From positions 1 to 20,876 of the IMG/VR virus record IMGVR_UViG_3300033149_002560: DNA of 20,876 nt; one strand, written 5' to 3'. This document shows positions 1,888 through 20,876 of this stretch, one piece after another; positions within the stretch are counted from its first letter, which is position 1, and every line of letters starts with the position of its first letter. Below the pieces are notes generated by a model, which was not told where the DNA came from, searched no databases, and worked only from the letters and a program-made list of their open reading frames with translations. The translations under genes were made by a program, and so were the position numbers. This stretch comes from a virus.

Positions 1888-3510
1888 ATGAGTGAAAAAA
1901 CCAGTTTTGTGGGCAGGGTGTTGGCCCGCATTATGCCCAGTAGACAACCAACGGCCCAAAGGGTTGTTATTAACCCAGCCCCAGCCGGTGCTTATGTAAA
2001 CAACGAAAACGCACTAACACATACAGCGGTTTGGTGTGCAATCAAGCTACTTTCTGAAACCATCGGCAGCCTGAATTTTAAAATTCTGCAGCCTTTGGCA
2101 AATGGGACCAACGCAGAAGTTAAGCAGGGCACAATTTACGAGCTTTTAAATGTTGCCCCAAATTCTATGATGTCGGCAGCGACTTTCCGCGAAACCTTAA
2201 CGGCCCATGTGTGTGGATGGGGTAATGCCTATGCAGAAATTGAAAGGGATATGCTGGGCCGCGCGGTTGCCCTTTGGCCTTTGCTGCCGAATCAGACCAG
2301 GCCGGTAATTGATGAATCAGGGGACCTTTGGTATCAGAACACTGACAAAAACGGCAACAAAGTATACCTGCCTGCAAAGGATGTTTTACACATTCACGGT
2401 TTTGGCTTTGATGGGATTATGGGTTACGACCCTATCACCTACCACGCGCAAGCAATCAGCCAGGGCCTTGCAGTTGAACAGCATACCAGTGATTTTTTTG
2501 CCAACGGAACACACTTAAACGGTGCTTTGATCGCAAAGGGCAAGCTAGACAAAGATAAGCGCGCAAATATACGGGATGCCTATAATGAAAGTTATAAGGG
2601 TGTCGGAAAAGCCTATCGAATGGCCGTATTTGATAACGATTTATCCTGGCAAAGTTTTTCAGTTAGCCCAGAGGCAAGCCAGCTTATTGAAAGCCGAAAA
2701 TTTAAGGTATCTGATATCGCAAGAATATGGCGGGTGCCGAATCACCTACTGGGCGATTTAGAGAAAGCCACATTCAGCAATATTGAAAGCCAGGGCATTG
2801 AATTTGTACAGTACACAATATTGCCCTGGGCCGTTAGGTGGGAAAGTGAAATAAATATGAAGCTGTTAAACGGCAACAACCCCAAAAGACGCGCAAAGAT
2901 GAATTTAAACGTGCTTATGCGCGGGGATGTTAAAAGCCGTTTTGAAGCGTACAAGATTGGCAGGGAATGGGGCTGGTTATCTGCAAACGATATCAGGGCC
3001 CTGGAAGATTTGAACCCGATACCTGGTATCGCTGGCCGGGCTTATATCCTGCCGCTAAATTATCAGCTGGCAAAGGATATCGGCAGCACCCCGGCACCCG
3101 CACCGGCCCCAGCGCCAGCACCGGCAAATGACCCGGAACCAACCCCGGACCCAGAGCCCAGCCCGGACCCTGATGAATTATCAGCTGCAGCAAATATAAT
3201 GGCAGACGATATCGCGGGCCGAATCTCAAATAAATACAGCAATGATTTGCTGGGTTATTGGGGTGATACGCCTTTGATCGCAAATAAGCTGGGCAGAAAT
3301 GAAACCTGGTTAAACAATGCTTTGCAGCCTTTGGGTGAATTATTTGCACAGGCTAAATTACCTTTTTCTATTGAAGGATGCGCCCAGGCTATTGGCGAAA
3401 TGATACAGAGCTATTATAGTGAATTAACAGAAGGCCAGGAAAAAGAGAAAGACCAGGCCGAAATTAAACAAATTGTGACTGCAGCAATCAAGCGGCAGCT
3501 GGTAGGTTAA
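1888..3510 (+). CDS. portal protein (HK97 family)
   Basis: 540 aa. It forms the dodecameric ring at one capsid vertex through which DNA enters and leaves. Family features include the early ALTHTAVWCAIKLLSETIGSL segment, the central KFKVSDIARIWRVPNHLLGD segment and the FSNIESQGIEFV.YTILPW helix, all characteristic of phage_portal (PF04860). The core is followed by a low-complexity Pro-Ala then Pro-Asp/Glu linker at about residues 398-430, and a separate helical C-terminal part of about 110 residues. Such a C-terminal extension beyond the usual ~400-aa core is uncommon but not unique; it could be an internal tail or scaffold-interaction region. Start ATG 1888 has GGGAG upstream. It is followed by the protease after 2 bp. 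Confidence 0.95.
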   Translation: MSEKTSFVGRVLARIMPSRQPTAQRVVINPAPAGAYVNNENALTHTAVWCAIKLLSETIGSLNFKILQPLANGTNAEVKQGTIYELLNVAPNSMMSAATFRETLTAHVCGWGNAYAEIERDMLGRAVALWPLLPNQTRPVIDESGDLWYQNTDKNGNKVYLPAKDVLHIHGFGFDGIMGYDPITYHAQAISQGLAVEQHTSDFFANGTHLNGALIAKGKLDKDKRANIRDAYNESYKGVGKAYRMAVFDNDLSWQSFSVSPEASQLIESRKFKVSDIARIWRVPNHLLGDLEKATFSNIESQGIEFVQYTILPWAVRWESEINMKLLNGNNPKRRAKMNLNVLMRGDVKSRFEAYKIGREWGWLSANDIRALEDLNPIPGIAGRAYILPLNYQLAKDIGSTPAPAPAPAPAPANDPEPTPDPEPSPDPDELSAAANIMADDIAGRISNKYSNDLLGYWGDTPLIANKLGRNETWLNNALQPLGELFAQAKLPFSIEGCAQAIGEMIQSYYSELTEGQEKEKDQAEIKQIVTAAIKRQLVG

Positions 3511-15188: not shown

Positions 15189-16490
15189 ATGACCGATTAC
15201 AACAATATCCCCCAGGCTGATATTGATACAGACTCGCCTATTGATGAAAGTTTGCTGGAAAGGATGCGAGATAATCCAATAGCAATAACAGAAGGCGCAG
15301 CAGGGGCCCCGAAAATTCAAACTGCAGCAATTCAAGACGGTGCAGTTACCAGCCCCAAAATTCCAGCCCTGGCAATTCTCACAGGTAAACTGGCTGACCT
15401 AGCAGTAACAGCTGGCAAGATTGCAGCCGGAGCTGTAACAAATGCAAAGATTGCAGCCCAGGCAGTAACCACGGATAAAATTAATGCTTTAGCGGTTACT
15501 ACTCCAAAAATTGCTGACCTTGCAGTAACAACAGCCAAAATAAATGATTTGGCGGTTACTACTCCAAAAATTGCTGACCTTGCAGTAACTAGCCCAAAGA
15601 TAAACAACCAGGCCGTTAAAAGTAATCACCTATCAATCGCAACCGTTCAAGTGCTTGCCAGTAAACCTACCTTTGGTAGTGGTACAAGCCGCATTGCTAT
15701 ACCTAACGGGGTTTTTTCGTTAGGTGTTGAAGTGGTGGCGGCCACCGGTTCCGCTAATAACAACTCTGTTAGGATTGAATCAGGCGGGGCCGGTGTGCAG
15801 CCTAATCAATTAACAGTTATAGCAGCAGGTGGTTTTGGTGGTGGAACTTGTACAGGTCAGGCCACTTATATTACAGCCAGCCCCCCGTATGAATTAGAAG
15901 GCGAGAAAGCAAATGCTTTTGTTTATATCCTTGAATTTAACAAGCCTGGCGAAGCTGCAGAGAATGCGCAAATTGCAGAAGTTTATGCAAGTGAGTCACC
16001 CCCTTGGATAACATACAAAGGCTTTAATATTTTGCCGGACTCTTATCAGCATGTTATAGATCAGGAAACAGGCGAAGAAATAGAATTAAAATGCTTTAAG
16101 CAGGTCCCAGTTAATAAACCGGAACCCAGCGACCCTGGATATCTTGAATGGATGCAAAACCCTGAATATGAAAACCAGGAAATAACCCCGGATTTTAAAA
16201 ATACTCACCTGGCCGACATGCCTCACCCCTGGAAAGAACAGGATTTAACAGCAAAGGTGGCGGCCTGGCTGCCAGAAGGTGAAGAAATGGCAGAAAGTGA
16301 AACCTGGGCCGATTATTTCACTTTGAAGTTTTTGTACCCGCACTGTGAAGAAAGCGCAACCCTGTTAAACATGCTGAAAGAAAATGCAGACGTAGCAGGT
16401 TTCATTTATGGTGGAGGCATAACTTTGGGCGATAAAATGGAAAGCAGCCTATTACCTGAAATAGACACTTTCGGTTTTTCTTTTACTTGA
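15189..16490 (+). CDS. tail fibre / receptor-binding-like protein with decapeptide repeats
   Basis: 433 aa. Residues 51-140 are nine tandem 10-residue repeats, consensus (L/G/Q)AVTxxKIxx, typical of triple-stranded beta fibre shafts in tail fibres. Before them is an N-terminal attachment segment (IPQADIDTDSPIDESLLERMRDNPIAI) of the sort that docks a fibre on the tail. After the shaft comes a Gly-rich beta region (150-225) and an acidic C-terminal part with Trp residues (ESPPWITYKG, LEWMQNP, MPHPWKEQD) that could bind the receptor or act as a trimerisation tip. No known fibre tip family is recognised. It contains two GGTGGCGGCC motifs (15734-15743, 16256-16265). Confidence 0.75.
   Translation: MTDYNNIPQADIDTDSPIDESLLERMRDNPIAITEGAAGAPKIQTAAIQDGAVTSPKIPALAILTGKLADLAVTAGKIAAGAVTNAKIAAQAVTTDKINALAVTTPKIADLAVTTAKINDLAVTTPKIADLAVTSPKINNQAVKSNHLSIATVQVLASKPTFGSGTSRIAIPNGVFSLGVEVVAATGSANNNSVRIESGGAGVQPNQLTVIAAGGFGGGTCTGQATYITASPPYELEGEKANAFVYILEFNKPGEAAENAQIAEVYASESPPWITYKGFNILPDSYQHVIDQETGEEIELKCFKQVPVNKPEPSDPGYLEWMQNPEYENQEITPDFKNTHLADMPHPWKEQDLTAKVAAWLPEGEEMAESETWADYFTLKFLYPHCEESATLLNMLKENADVAGFIYGGGITLGDKMESSLLPEIDTFGFSFT
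15339..15608 (+). repeat. nine tandem 30-bp (10-aa) fibre repeats
   Basis: The DNA for residues 51-140 of the fibre-like gene is nine 30-bp units. Within them a 38-bp stretch at 15492-15529 recurs identically at 15552-15589, 60 bp apart, so recent duplication or recombination between repeats is likely. Repeat number could vary among relatives and change fibre length. Confidence 0.9.
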
Positions 16491-17214: not shown

Positions 17215-17649
17215 ATGTACATACAGCCACAAATTAGAAACGATAGCCAGGGAAGTGGTGAATGGAGATCAAGACGCGGAAAGCGGCCCCATAAGGGTAT
17301 TGATTACCAGGTAACACCAGGGGCCTTTATTAAATCCCATGTAAACGGAAAAGTTACCAAGCTGGGGTACCCATACGGTGACGATTTAAGTTATCGCTAT
17401 GTAGAGGTAACAGATTACGCTGGTTTGCGGCACCGGTTTTTTTACGTTGAACCATACGCAAAGGAAGGCGAATTAATCCAGGCAGGGGCCGTTTTAGGCT
17501 GGGCCCAGGATGTTGCAGCAAGATACCCAGCAAACGAAACCAGGGGCGAAATGCAGCCCCACATTCATTATGAAGTGCTAGACCAGGCCGGGCTTGATTA
17601 CGACCCAGAAAAGTTTTTGCAGCACTTCACAAAAATAGAAGTTTCTTAA
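17215..17649 (+). CDS. M23-family peptidase endolysin
   Basis: 144 aa, a stand-alone peptidase M23 domain (LytM/lysostaphin-like zinc endopeptidase) that cuts the peptide cross-bridges of peptidoglycan. Zinc ligands are visible: H26 and D30 in PHKGID, H118 in PHIHYEV, with H116 as likely catalytic base; H73 in LRHRFFYV is a further conserved-type position. No signal peptide or wall-binding domain, so it should depend on the holin upstream. M23 endolysins are less common than lysozyme or amidase types in such phages. AAAGG before ATG 17215 supports the start. The gene ends the late transcription unit. Confidence 0.9.
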   Translation: MYIQPQIRNDSQGSGEWRSRRGKRPHKGIDYQVTPGAFIKSHVNGKVTKLGYPYGDDLSYRYVEVTDYAGLRHRFFYVEPYAKEGELIQAGAVLGWAQDVAARYPANETRGEMQPHIHYEVLDQAGLDYDPEKFLQHFTKIEVS

Positions 17650-18240: not shown

Positions 18241-18433
18241 GCTGGCTTTTGATGCCAGAGAGCAGCTAAACGATTGGGAAAGCGGTTTTATTGTAAAACT
18301 CAATAAACTGGCAAACCATCACATGCCTGTAAATCTAACTGATAAGCAAGCCCAGAAGTTAAAGCAGATTGATAAAAAGCTAACCGCAATTCACGAGGGC
18401 GAAAATGGGGAACTATCCGAGCCAGAAGGCTGA
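18212..18433 (+). CDS. small helical hypothetical protein (73 aa)
   Basis: From ATG 18212, overlapping the previous gene by 29 bp, with GAGAGAG about 8 bp upstream; an in-frame TTG at 18140 is less likely because it would overlap deeply. Content is charged and helical: MIKLAFDAREQLNDWESGFIVKL and LTDKQAQKLKQIDKKLTAI. This pattern of two helices around NHHMPVNLTDKQ recalls small proteins encoded beside phage replication initiators, but I do not recognise a family. Confidence 0.6.
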   Translation: MDKNQKKMIKLAFDAREQLNDWESGFIVKLNKLANHHMPVNLTDKQAQKLKQIDKKLTAIHEGENGELSEPEG

Positions 18434-18563
18434 AAACCGAAAGGAGTACATGCGCAAGTACAGAGCTGATAAAAAGGCGCAGGGTTTAACGCAGGTGCGA
18501 TTTGACAGCATAACCCACCAACAAAAGGCCCAGCTTTTGAAATACTGGGAAACAATAAAATAA
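18405..18563 (+). CDS. small basic protein (52 aa), possible ribbon-helix-helix type
   Basis: ATG 18405 to TAA 18561-18563, overlapping the previous gene by 29 bp. Sequence begins MGNYPSQKAENRKEYMRKYR and includes LTQVRFDSITHQQKAQLLKYWETI, i.e. a basic helix, a short strand and a helix, compatible with a small DNA-binding protein. GAGGG lies 7 bp before ATG 18405. A second in-frame ATG at 18450 has AAGGAG only 3 bp upstream and might give a 37-aa form. Fills the gap before the initiator-like gene. Function unknown. Confidence 0.6.
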   Translation: MGNYPSQKAENRKEYMRKYRADKKAQGLTQVRFDSITHQQKAQLLKYWETIK

Positions 18564-18582: not shown

Positions 18583-19017
18583 ATGAGTTTTGAAGCAGCA
18601 GCCTGGGCAATTAAGCAGCGCCCAGAATCACCAACCGAAAAGTTAATTCTAATAGCACTAGCTGACTGTATGAATGCAGAAACAGGCCGGTGCTTCCCTT
18701 CCGTTGATTTCCTGGCAGAAGCGGCTTTGTGTTCAAAGAGAACGGCCCAGCGCGCAATCAAGAGCCTGGAAAGCCAAGGCTTTATTAATCGCAGTTTCAG
18801 GGTAAACGATACTCCCTTATATCGCCTTAATTTGGGTGGGTGTCAAAATGTCACCCGGTGTCAGGATGATGATTTGGGGTGTCATATTGACACTTCTAGG
18901 GGTGTCACCGGTGTCACCCTAACCAGGAAGTTAACCAAGAATAATAAACCAGGGGTTACAGCTGCCGCTGACTTTGTTGAATTGCATACAAGCACAGAGT
19001 GGGCAGCAGACTTATGA
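18583..19017 (+). CDS. replication initiator-like protein, HTH_36 domain
   Basis: 144 aa. Residues ~15-70 form a winged helix-turn-helix of the HTH_36 type: PTEKLILIALADCMNAETGRCFPSVDFLAEAALCSKRTAQRAIKSLESQGFI. This domain is found at the N-terminus of phage replication proteins (lambda O-like) and plasmid Rep proteins. The C-terminal half is short, without a helicase-loader or primase domain, so host helicase recruitment would need another factor. The DNA for residues ~86-112 is an array of GGTGTCA repeats, as expected if the protein binds an origin within its own gene. AAGGGG 5-10 bp upstream supports ATG 18583. Confidence 0.7.
   Translation: MSFEAAAWAIKQRPESPTEKLILIALADCMNAETGRCFPSVDFLAEAALCSKRTAQRAIKSLESQGFINRSFRVNDTPLYRLNLGGCQNVTRCQDDDLGCHIDTSRGVTGVTLTRKLTKNNKPGVTAAADFVELHTSTEWAADL
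18838..18919. repeat. iteron-like cluster, candidate replication origin
   Basis: GGTGTCA occurs five times in the same direction at 18839, 18857, 18878, 18901 and 18910; TGTCA occurs again at 18849, and inverted at 18888. The last two copies are the tandem GGTGTCACC GGTGTCACC. All fall within 80 bp inside the initiator-like gene, followed by a more A/T-rich stretch to about 18955. Lambda's origin inside gene O has the same architecture. The origin role is inferred. Confidence 0.6.
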
Positions 19018-19523
19018 ACACAAAAGAATTTGAACAAAGTTTGAAAGTGCAGCCAACGTTTTACGAATTGTATTATGTGCTGCATAGGGAAGGCAGGACA
19101 AAGGCAGAAGCAGCAGCGGTTATAAATCGGTATTTTGAATTAACGATTTCTGCAAAGCATTTGCACTTGTTTTGGATGGTTGAAAATAACGGAATCATTG
19201 ACCTGGAAAGGCATCATTTTTTAAGGGAAGGCTCAAGATTGCTATTCCCTGTTTATGTGGTGTTTTATGAAGATGCAAAAATGCACTTTGCTGATAATGT
19301 TACCGAGCTATCAAAATTCAATTACAGCAGGAACGACAAGGCCAGGCTTTCTGGGTTGAATTGTGCTTGTTGTGGAATGGATTTTAGTAAAAAGGGTTGT
19401 GGTGGTATGTTTGAAAAGTGTGATTTAGAGACAAGGGAAAATACTAGATTCAGGGCGCTTAATGAATTAGATAAGAGGGAATTTAAAAATGTTGGAATGG
19501 GAACCGATGGAAATGAGATATAA
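19014..19523 (+). CDS. hypothetical protein with Cys-rich segment (169 aa)
   Basis: Starts at ATG 19014 in an ATGA overlap with the initiator-like gene. A GTG at 18999 is in frame but would overlap more. The first 70 residues are helical with a helix-turn-helix-like piece (EGRTKAEAAAVINRYFELTISAKHLHLFW). Residues 117-136 hold C117, C119, C120, C129 and C136 in NCACCGMDFSKKGCGGMFEKC, probably a small metal-binding knuckle. In lambda the equivalent place is the helicase loader P, but no P-like or AAA+ features are visible. Function not recognised. Confidence 0.65.
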   Translation: MNTKEFEQSLKVQPTFYELYYVLHREGRTKAEAAAVINRYFELTISAKHLHLFWMVENNGIIDLERHHFLREGSRLLFPVYVVFYEDAKMHFADNVTELSKFNYSRNDKARLSGLNCACCGMDFSKKGCGGMFEKCDLETRENTRFRALNELDKREFKNVGMGTDGNEI

Positions 19524-19828: not shown

Positions 19829-20065
19829 ATGAATAAATCGGAATTATTTGGCGGGGTTATCTTGCTGGCAGTTGTTGTTTATGTGTTGTGTGTATCGGTG
19901 GCGGCCCTTCAAGTGCTAATTGCCTGGATATCAGAGAACTTTAATTTTTTTGAGTCTATCTTTTGGTTTGAAAATTGGCATGTATCTTTGCAGATTGGTG
20001 GCGGTGGTTGTTTTGTTTTCCTGGGCATTCTGTTTTTAATCGGTGGTTTTGATGATGCCAAGTAA
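19829..20065 (+). CDS. small two-span membrane protein
   Basis: 78 aa. Membrane spans at about residues 8-34 (GGVILLAVVVYVLCVSVAAL) and 55-73 (GGGGCFVFLGILFLIGG), joined by an aromatic loop WISENFNFFESIFWFENWH. No clear Shine-Dalgarno precedes ATG 19829, because the leader is taken up by parS; translation may be coupled or low. It could be a second lysis protein, a superinfection-exclusion protein or a membrane partner of the DNA; none is recognisable. Contains GGTGGCGGCC at 19897-19906. Overlaps the next gene by 11 bp. Confidence 0.65.
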   Translation: MNKSELFGGVILLAVVVYVLCVSVAALQVLIAWISENFNFFESIFWFENWHVSLQIGGGGCFVFLGILFLIGGFDDAK

Positions 20066-20447
20066 CTTAGAAGAAAAGCTATTCTTTCAGCTGACAATCG
20101 CAGGACTGCCGGAACCGGTTAAAGAGCATGTATTTTTTGAGGGCCGTAAATGGCGCTTTGATTTTTGCTGGCCTTCCCTAATGGTGGCGGTTGAATGTGA
20201 GGGGATTATATACAACCAGAACTATAAAGCCGGTGTAAGGATGGGCGGCAGGCAAGCAGGCAGGACCACACAAATAAAAAAGAGCAGGCACCAGACAGCT
20301 GCCGGATATAGCAAAGACTGTGAGAAGTACAACGCAGCTGCAGAGGATGGTTGGTTAGTGTTGCGATATACACAGCAGCACATTAACAGCGGTGAAGCAC
20401 TGCAACAGATCGAGCGTATAGTGAGCGCCAGGTTATGCCAACAGTAG
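20055..20447 (+). CDS. Vsr/DUF559-like PD-(D/E)xK endonuclease
   Basis: 130 aa from ATG 20055 (ATG 20052 is adjacent, GTG 20043 upstream). The core FEGRKWRFDFCWPSLMVAVECEG (Asp then Glu-x-Glu) followed by SRH.....GYSKDCEKYNAAAEDGWLVLRYT is the signature of small phage endonucleases related to Vsr and DUF559. In relatives EGG is followed closely by GRH; here an extra basic loop of about 20 residues (about 51-77, rich in Arg, Lys, Gly) separates them. Likely a DNA-structure or nicking nuclease for replication or packaging. It overlaps the HNH gene by 13 bp. Confidence 0.82.
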   Translation: MPSNLEEKLFFQLTIAGLPEPVKEHVFFEGRKWRFDFCWPSLMVAVECEGIIYNQNYKAGVRMGGRQAGRTTQIKKSRHQTAAGYSKDCEKYNAAAEDGWLVLRYTQQHINSGEALQQIERIVSARLCQQ

Positions 20448-20785
20448 GCAGCAAGACAGAATGTGCAGCACTGGGTTGCCATAGGACCACAGCAAATAAG
20501 TACTGCGACAAGCATAAGGGAGAAGGACAGAAGCGCAAACGTTCACGCAAGGGAAGCGATTACAGACCTTATAAAACACCTGCCTGGTTAGCTATGCGCG
20601 CAAAGATATTGCAACGTGACCCAGTGTGCAAAGGCCCTGGCCTTTATGGTGATGGGTGCAGCCAGCCTTCTAAACATGTTGACCACATAACCCCCTGGAA
20701 ACAGGGCGGTGCCTTTCTCGACCCAAAGAATCTGCAGGGCTTGTGCCACAGCTGCCACAGTAAAAAGACCCAGCGCGGCCAGTAA
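20435..20785 (+). CDS. HNH endonuclease with N-terminal zinc finger
   Basis: 116 aa. An N-terminal zinc-finger-like C10-C15-C24-H27 set and a Lys/Arg-rich linker precede an HNH domain: C65 and C75, D83-H84 in HVDHITPW, N99 in DPKNLQGLC, and C104/C107/H108 in CHSCHSKK. The C65/C75/C104/C107 cysteines likely hold the structural zinc. HNH proteins encoded next to terminase genes act in packaging and cos cleavage in HK97-type phages, and this one is last before the window end; the window begins with the end of a small terminase. Confidence 0.93.
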   Translation: MPTVGSKTECAALGCHRTTANKYCDKHKGEGQKRKRSRKGSDYRPYKTPAWLAMRAKILQRDPVCKGPGLYGDGCSQPSKHVDHITPWKQGGAFLDPKNLQGLCHSCHSKKTQRGQ

Positions 20786-20876
20786 AAAATTTTTTATTTG
20801 AATCTATCCTGCCTGTAAATAATTCACAAAAGGGGTGGGGGGGGGTAAGATAGCTGGAAAGTGGTAATCAATTCAG
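20786..20876. other. intergenic region with A6T6 palindrome and G9 run
   Basis: No gene is seen in these 91 bp. TAAAAAATTTTTTA (20783-20796) is a 14-bp A/T palindrome overlapping the end of the HNH gene. GGGG T GGGGGGGGG lies at 20832-20845, then a polypurine-like stretch. In related phages the cos site lies around this point between HNH and small terminase, but no cos feature can be recognised directly. Confidence 0.5.

Follow-up and report, generated by a model that had tools for sequence, protein, structure and literature searches.

A candidate lambda-type replication origin inside the gene of a short HTH_36 initiator

Introduction

Replication origins that lie within the gene of their own initiator are already known from phages. 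In lambda, gene O encodes an N-terminal DNA-binding domain, and four dyad iterons of about 18 bp code for the linker (PMC6022878). The COOH-terminal region of lambda O is thought to bind P, with the last five residues being essential (PMC6022878). Similarly, SPP1 has its oriL within the initiator gene, gene 38, where direct repeats bound by the initiator accompany an AT-rich unwinding element (PMC6316719), while iteron plasmids of the RepE and RK2 TrfA type place phased iterons beside the repeated 13-mers of their unwinding element (PMC5043065). Phage origins have seldom been mapped in environmental phages.

The window analysed here, the whole 20,876-base stretch of a viral contig from IMG/VR, carries a terminase, other large plus-strand ORFs, an M23 peptidase, a short early-like region and an HNH endonuclease:

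141-1883: terminase
17215-17649: M23 peptidase
20435-20785: HNH endonuclease

An earlier note on this DNA had proposed a candidate origin with lambda-ori architecture within an initiator-like gene. Having compared the locus with its relatives, we consider it very probably a lambda-type, intragenic, theta-type origin served by a minimal HTH_36 initiator; protein family, position, spacing, DNA-level repeats, covariation with the recognition helix and an adjacent box array all fit the earlier proposal. The kind is known from lambda and SPP1 oriL; new are the minimal initiator, the AACCA array common to relatives and the covariation between helix and iterons.

Results

The gene at the centre of the locus has the following parts:

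18583..19017, plus strand: initiator gene, 144 aa, of the HTH_36 / PHROG replication-initiation (O-like) family, lacking the middle domain of its relatives
18628..18786, plus strand: HTH_36 winged-helix domain, residues 16-68 (Pfam match and AF2 model)
18736-18777, plus strand: recognition helix, about residues 52-65 (Pfam match and AF2 model)
18949..19014, plus strand: C-terminal tail PGVTAAADFVELHTSTEWAADL, resembling the lambda O C-terminus GVTASKPKLDLTNTDWIYGVDL (tail alignment)

The protein belongs to HTH_36 (Pfam, E=8.7e-18), and its N-terminal domain matches the replication-initiation profiles phrog_1032, 270 and 391 (PHROG, E=3.9e-16 to 9.2e-16). In the best PHROG matches only the first 70-96 residues align, against profiles of 196-383 positions, and the protein, at 144 aa, does not extend over the full length of the phrog_1032/270/391 family with its middle/C-terminal domain. 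Among Pfam matches up to E=0.1 there was no Phage_rep_O, the family of the lambda O N-terminus, HTH_36 being found instead, and the Pfam search gave no match of the Rep_3 type typical of iteron-plasmid Rep proteins. Comparison with PDB sequences returned weak, generic winged-helix matches only, as did Foldseek. In the AlphaFold2 (AF2) model, built from an 18-sequence alignment, residues 1-82 form a confident winged helix and residues 87-144 are mostly disordered. The first relatives found are 204-353 aa long; compared with them, the window protein is without the middle domain and keeps the C-terminal tail. The earlier note had called the protein unusual and short; the refinement is that the middle domain alone is lost and a lambda-O-like tail retained.

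The alignment score between this tail and that of lambda O was equalled in 2 of 2000 shuffles, and when the tail was placed along all of lambda O, the best position was lambda O's own C-terminus. Within the family, the motif [ILVMF][DE]x3-5[STGCD]xW is enriched in the tails (8/44 genes vs 0.5 expected, maximum 4), two of the eight being doubtful, since about 41 residues separate them from the end. A general enrichment of Trp in family tails was considered and rejected (15/32 vs about 12 expected). The similar tails of the window protein and lambda O may point to a shared contact with the helicase-loading machinery, although the middle domain is missing from the former. Two other C-termini may be recorded here. 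The mEp460 initiator ends in ...DYSQIPAGFRG, unlike the lambda-like tail of the window protein, and a homologue in another locus (L017, 4001-4213) stops after 70 residues, right behind the HTH domain, as a decayed, frameshifted or natural domain-only form.

The iterons lie inside the initiator gene, between the DNA-binding domain and the C-terminus:

18839..18855, plus strand: iteron 1, dyad GGTGTCA-AAA-TGTCACC
18857..18873, plus strand: iteron 2, GGTGTCA-GGA-TGATGAT, right half degenerate
18878..18894, plus strand: iteron 3, dyad GGTGTCA-TAT-TGACACT
18901..18918, plus strand: iteron 4, GGTGTCA-CCGG-TGTCACC, which is also the 9-bp tandem

All five direct GGTGTCA copies that the earlier note had seen within 80 bp of the HTH_36 coding sequence were located on the plus strand (18839, 18857, 18878, 18901 and 18910), with one further copy in the whole 20,876-bp contig, and the last two are indeed a perfect tandem of 9 bp, GGTGTCACC, at 18901-18909 and 18910-18918. 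Of its two related TGTCA boxes, one is a direct TGTCA at 18849, while the other is inverted (TGACA at 18888). The copies are present as direct repeats, but they are better read as four dyads of 17-18 bp, GGTGWCA-N3/4-TGWCACC, of which the second is degenerate and three of four are good, with start-to-start spacings of 18, 21 and 23 bp. Their density is above chance: five copies of one 7-mer per 90 bp is the maximum of the contig, where no more than three occur elsewhere, and 200 dinucleotide shuffles of the contig reached at most four. Protein-preserving synonymous-codon shuffles of the initiator gene reached five copies in 20 of 5000 cases, and an 8-mer pair statistic for the window gene alone was borderline (55/1000).

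Relatives were gathered from IMG/VR and phage records. Nearly all of them carry repeats in the linker-coding stretch after the HTH domain, in sequences specific to the lineage, such as CCCCTGACTCACAGTC, CCCCTGAACTCAGTTC, GGGTGCA and GCGCACTCAGTGCGC. Tested against synonymous-codon shuffles, repeats at p<=0.01 were found in 29 of 34 related genes and in 3 of 72 control ORFs of the same loci, and lambda O, the positive control, was detected with 30 pairs vs 4.7. Pooled over 47 genes, direct-repeat offsets are most frequent at 22 bp (21-24) and have a further maximum at 44-45 bp, corresponding to two and four helical turns. Two distant genes, of TurkishDelight (a Streptomyces phage) and ValentiniPuff (a Microbacterium phage), are exceptions; in all others the outcome went against the refutation that the earlier note had envisaged, namely absence of the repeats in relatives with the same initiator. 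The closest relative by terminase (TerL 95% identical) was left out of this comparison because its contig stops just before the initiator gene. In the locus of Pseudanabaena phage Pam5 (1801-2604), a 267-aa HTH initiator ORF with internal iterons is unannotated in the public record, and a hypothetical CDS (2405-3187) overlaps its 3' end.

These comparisons also bear on the idea that the repeats arise only from a GVTGVT-like, repetitive protein linker and have no role as DNA, which has already been largely refuted and which we regard as highly improbable. The linker is indeed disordered in the model, and peptide repeats are visible in some relatives. Yet the GGTGTCA copies fall in two codon phases in the window, so that the encoded peptides differ (GCQ/RCQ/GCH vs GVT) and a protein repeat alone is no sufficient explanation; in relatives up to three phases are used, synonymous-codon shuffles fail to reproduce the repeats in most of them, and neither inverted copies nor a 22-bp spacing are multiples of a codon repeat. 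The relatives thus support an origin that would act at the level of DNA.

Directly 3' of the iterons lies a second kind of box:

18919..18959, plus strand: putative unwinding element with AACCA boxes at 18921, 18933 and 18947, locally A/T-rich

The boxes are 12 and 14 bp apart; no other run of three AACCW boxes exists in the contig, whichever strand is read. The A/T-richer stretch said to follow the repeats is real but mild: 18920-18959 has 62% A+T and ranks among the least stable 9% of the contig's 40-bp stretches. In relatives, AACCA boxes occur in the same place although the iterons differ. Between nt 240 and 480 of 33 genes, 68 boxes were counted vs 35.7 +/- 4.0 (maximum 48) in synonymous shuffles, and AACCW arrays were present in 18 of 32 genes vs a mean of 3.7 (maximum 9). 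The most frequent box spacings are 11 bp (31 cases), 12 bp (16) and 10 bp (8), and the codon phases are mixed (38/27/27), in a tally to which genes from the AACCA scans themselves also contribute.

In these reverse scans, viral contigs were searched with AACCA patterns alone. Among the matches listed, 13 of 85 and 12 of 130 lay within HTH-initiator ORFs, each of them in the sense orientation, with previously unseen lineages among them; seven of the 13 from the first scan belong to one lineage. The scan-found lineages that were examined have iterons directly upstream of the array. For comparison, 20 of 1700 random positions, drawn solely from the loci of the first scan, lay in HTH-initiator ORFs, seven of them 10-110 codons past the HTH domain. 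Many scan matches are ordinary in-frame protein repeats (PEPEPE). The control pattern ACCAA proved contaminated, as it overlaps AACCAA arrays; with the overlaps removed, 2 of 68 matches were in HTH ORFs. A literature search, with most subscription papers outside its reach, turned up no account of the AACCA array, which may be undescribed so far. Its position, and the parallel with the repeated 13-mers of oriC and RK2 (PMC5043065), lead us to take the array as a putative unwinding element.

The iterons vary together with the helix that would read them. Across 42 genes, the similarity of repeats, measured on 5-mers that recur behind the HTH domain with AACCW masked, correlates with recognition-helix identity at r=0.40, and hardly with the rest of the domain (r=0.11); after accounting for rest-of-domain identity the partial r is 0.39, which 0 of 2000 permutations reached (p<0.0005). 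TGACA sites occur in 8 of 18 genes with Arg at residue 57 vs 1 of 24 without it, and GTGCA sites in 0 of 18 vs 9 of 24 (Fisher p 0.0025-0.014, noticed post hoc). Given that these contrasts were noticed after the table had been seen and that the genes are not fully independent, a residue-57 recognition code is a lead only.

Covariation speaks for a pairing in binding and not for origin function, and would also suit operator sites bound by a transcription regulator that is not an initiator. The HTH_36 protein also matches MarR/GntR-type models weakly, and its top Foldseek matches are transcription regulators. However, the sites lie about 256 bp past the gene start, inside the gene and in no promoter position; the best PHROG matches are to replication initiation; many relatives carry a replication-protein annotation, and some adjoin P-like loaders or DnaB-like helicases; and a phased array followed by an AACCA element fits an origin. 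We therefore consider the operator explanation improbable.

In the position of the lambda P helicase-loader gene, the window has another gene:

19014..19523, plus strand: downstream gene, 169 aa, overlapping the initiator gene, no family match

Its product matches no Pfam or PHROG family, and a single-sequence AF2 model is poor (pLDDT 50); it may or may not be a helicase loader. By Pfam and PHROG searches, and by AF2 for the 169-aa gene, no helicase or helicase loader was recognised in the contig, in agreement with the earlier note's remark that a clear loader is lacking. Searches with the M23 peptidase and the 169-aa gene yielded no relatives, nor did the genome collection. GC skew, which had been expected to centre on the site, shows no sign switch and is positive along the whole contig, hence uninformative.

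Several other features of the window were observed. Just before the initiator gene, a 52-aa ORF (18405-18563) looks by eye like a small ribbon-helix-helix protein; its PHROG matches are all weak (best E 0.014) and of unknown function. A 134-aa protein (20043-20447) belongs to phrog_503 (E=2.7e-27, unknown function) and appears nuclease-like by eye, and a tail-associated protein (15189-16490) has about 10-residue tandem AVTTxKIxDLAVTTPKI peptide repeats. At the window ends (20786-20876 and 1-140), a G-rich tract follows the HNH gene and the sequence starts inside a terS-like ORF; the closest relative by terminase has a terS-like ORF upstream of terL with a G-rich tract ahead of it, the same layout. 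The ends are possibly a cos region and assembly break, and from this layout we estimate a full genome of about 21.2 kb, of which only 0.3-0.4 kb, at terS, is absent from the window. Should this estimate be right, the initiator would be the sole recognisable replication gene of the phage.

The short protein could also be decayed or truncated, marking an initiator-binding locus that is no longer an origin in a phage that replicates from elsewhere. Its 144 aa vs 204-353 aa in the first relatives, the absent middle domain and the lack of a recognised loader would agree with such decay. Against it, the frame is open, the start and HTH are intact, the tail motif is conserved, iterons and AACCA boxes are intact, and the replication-region ORFs searched contain no second initiator or helicase, which makes decay, in our judgement, quite improbable.

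Discussion

We propose that the locus works as a lambda-type origin in which the winged-helix initiator, as dimers, would bind the four dyad iterons at intervals of about two helical turns, the bound DNA coding at the same time for the initiator's own flexible linker. The assembled complex would strain the adjoining AACCA-box stretch and lead to its melting, and the lambda-O-like C-terminal tail would then recruit a helicase loader or the host helicase.

A broader proposal, to which we give somewhat less than an even chance, is that HTH_36 phage initiator genes share one modular origin. Its dyad iterons would be specific to the lineage and evolve together with the recognition helix, and the AACCA array behind them (boxes about 11 bp apart, coding strand) would be independent of lineage and serve all of these origins for unwinding or loading. 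The DNA-binding specificity of each initiator would in that case be written in its own gene, with Arg57 accompanying TGAC(A) and GTGCA occurring solely where residue 57 is not Arg, as a natural recognition code, and the window would represent the minimal version: DNA-binding domain, origin and tail. If iterons and AACCA array mark origins, sequence alone could locate the origins of many uncultured phage genomes. In addition, with the binding sites contained in every initiator gene itself, the HTH_36 family provides many naturally occurring protein-DNA pairs from which the specificity of winged helices could be learned. An initiator of 144 aa that has no middle domain also narrows which parts initiators need.

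Among known systems, iteron plasmids resemble the locus in their phased iterons beside repeated unwinding boxes and differ in that their origins generally lie outside the rep gene, their direct repeats are monomer-bound and their Rep domain is another one (PMC5043065 and general knowledge). SPP1 shares the placement within the initiator gene, a likeness taken from its published description, and has a phage loader (gp39) and helicase (gp40). The HTH_36/O-like initiators of mEp460, ZF40, Pseudomonas phi2, Arthrobacter phage Andrew and Vibrio D67 have the same domain and internal repeats at the matching place, and among these five mEp460 and D67 have the AACCA array; they differ in their longer proteins and lineage-specific iterons, and some adjoin P-like loaders or DnaB-like helicases. 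Lambda O is 299 aa long, vs 144 aa for the window protein without its middle domain, and the iteron sequences are unrelated; lambda has P, whereas none was recognised in the window; and its 39-bp AT-rich region, compared with which the low-stability stretch of the window is mild, has a purine tract in place of AACCA boxes, lambda O having no such array there. Lambda shares an N-terminal DNA-binding domain followed by four linker-coding dyad iterons, annotated at 18 bp with spacings of 20, 24 and 23 (18, 21 and 23 in the window), an unwinding region, putative in the window, 3' of the iterons and a similar C-terminal tail of the initiator.
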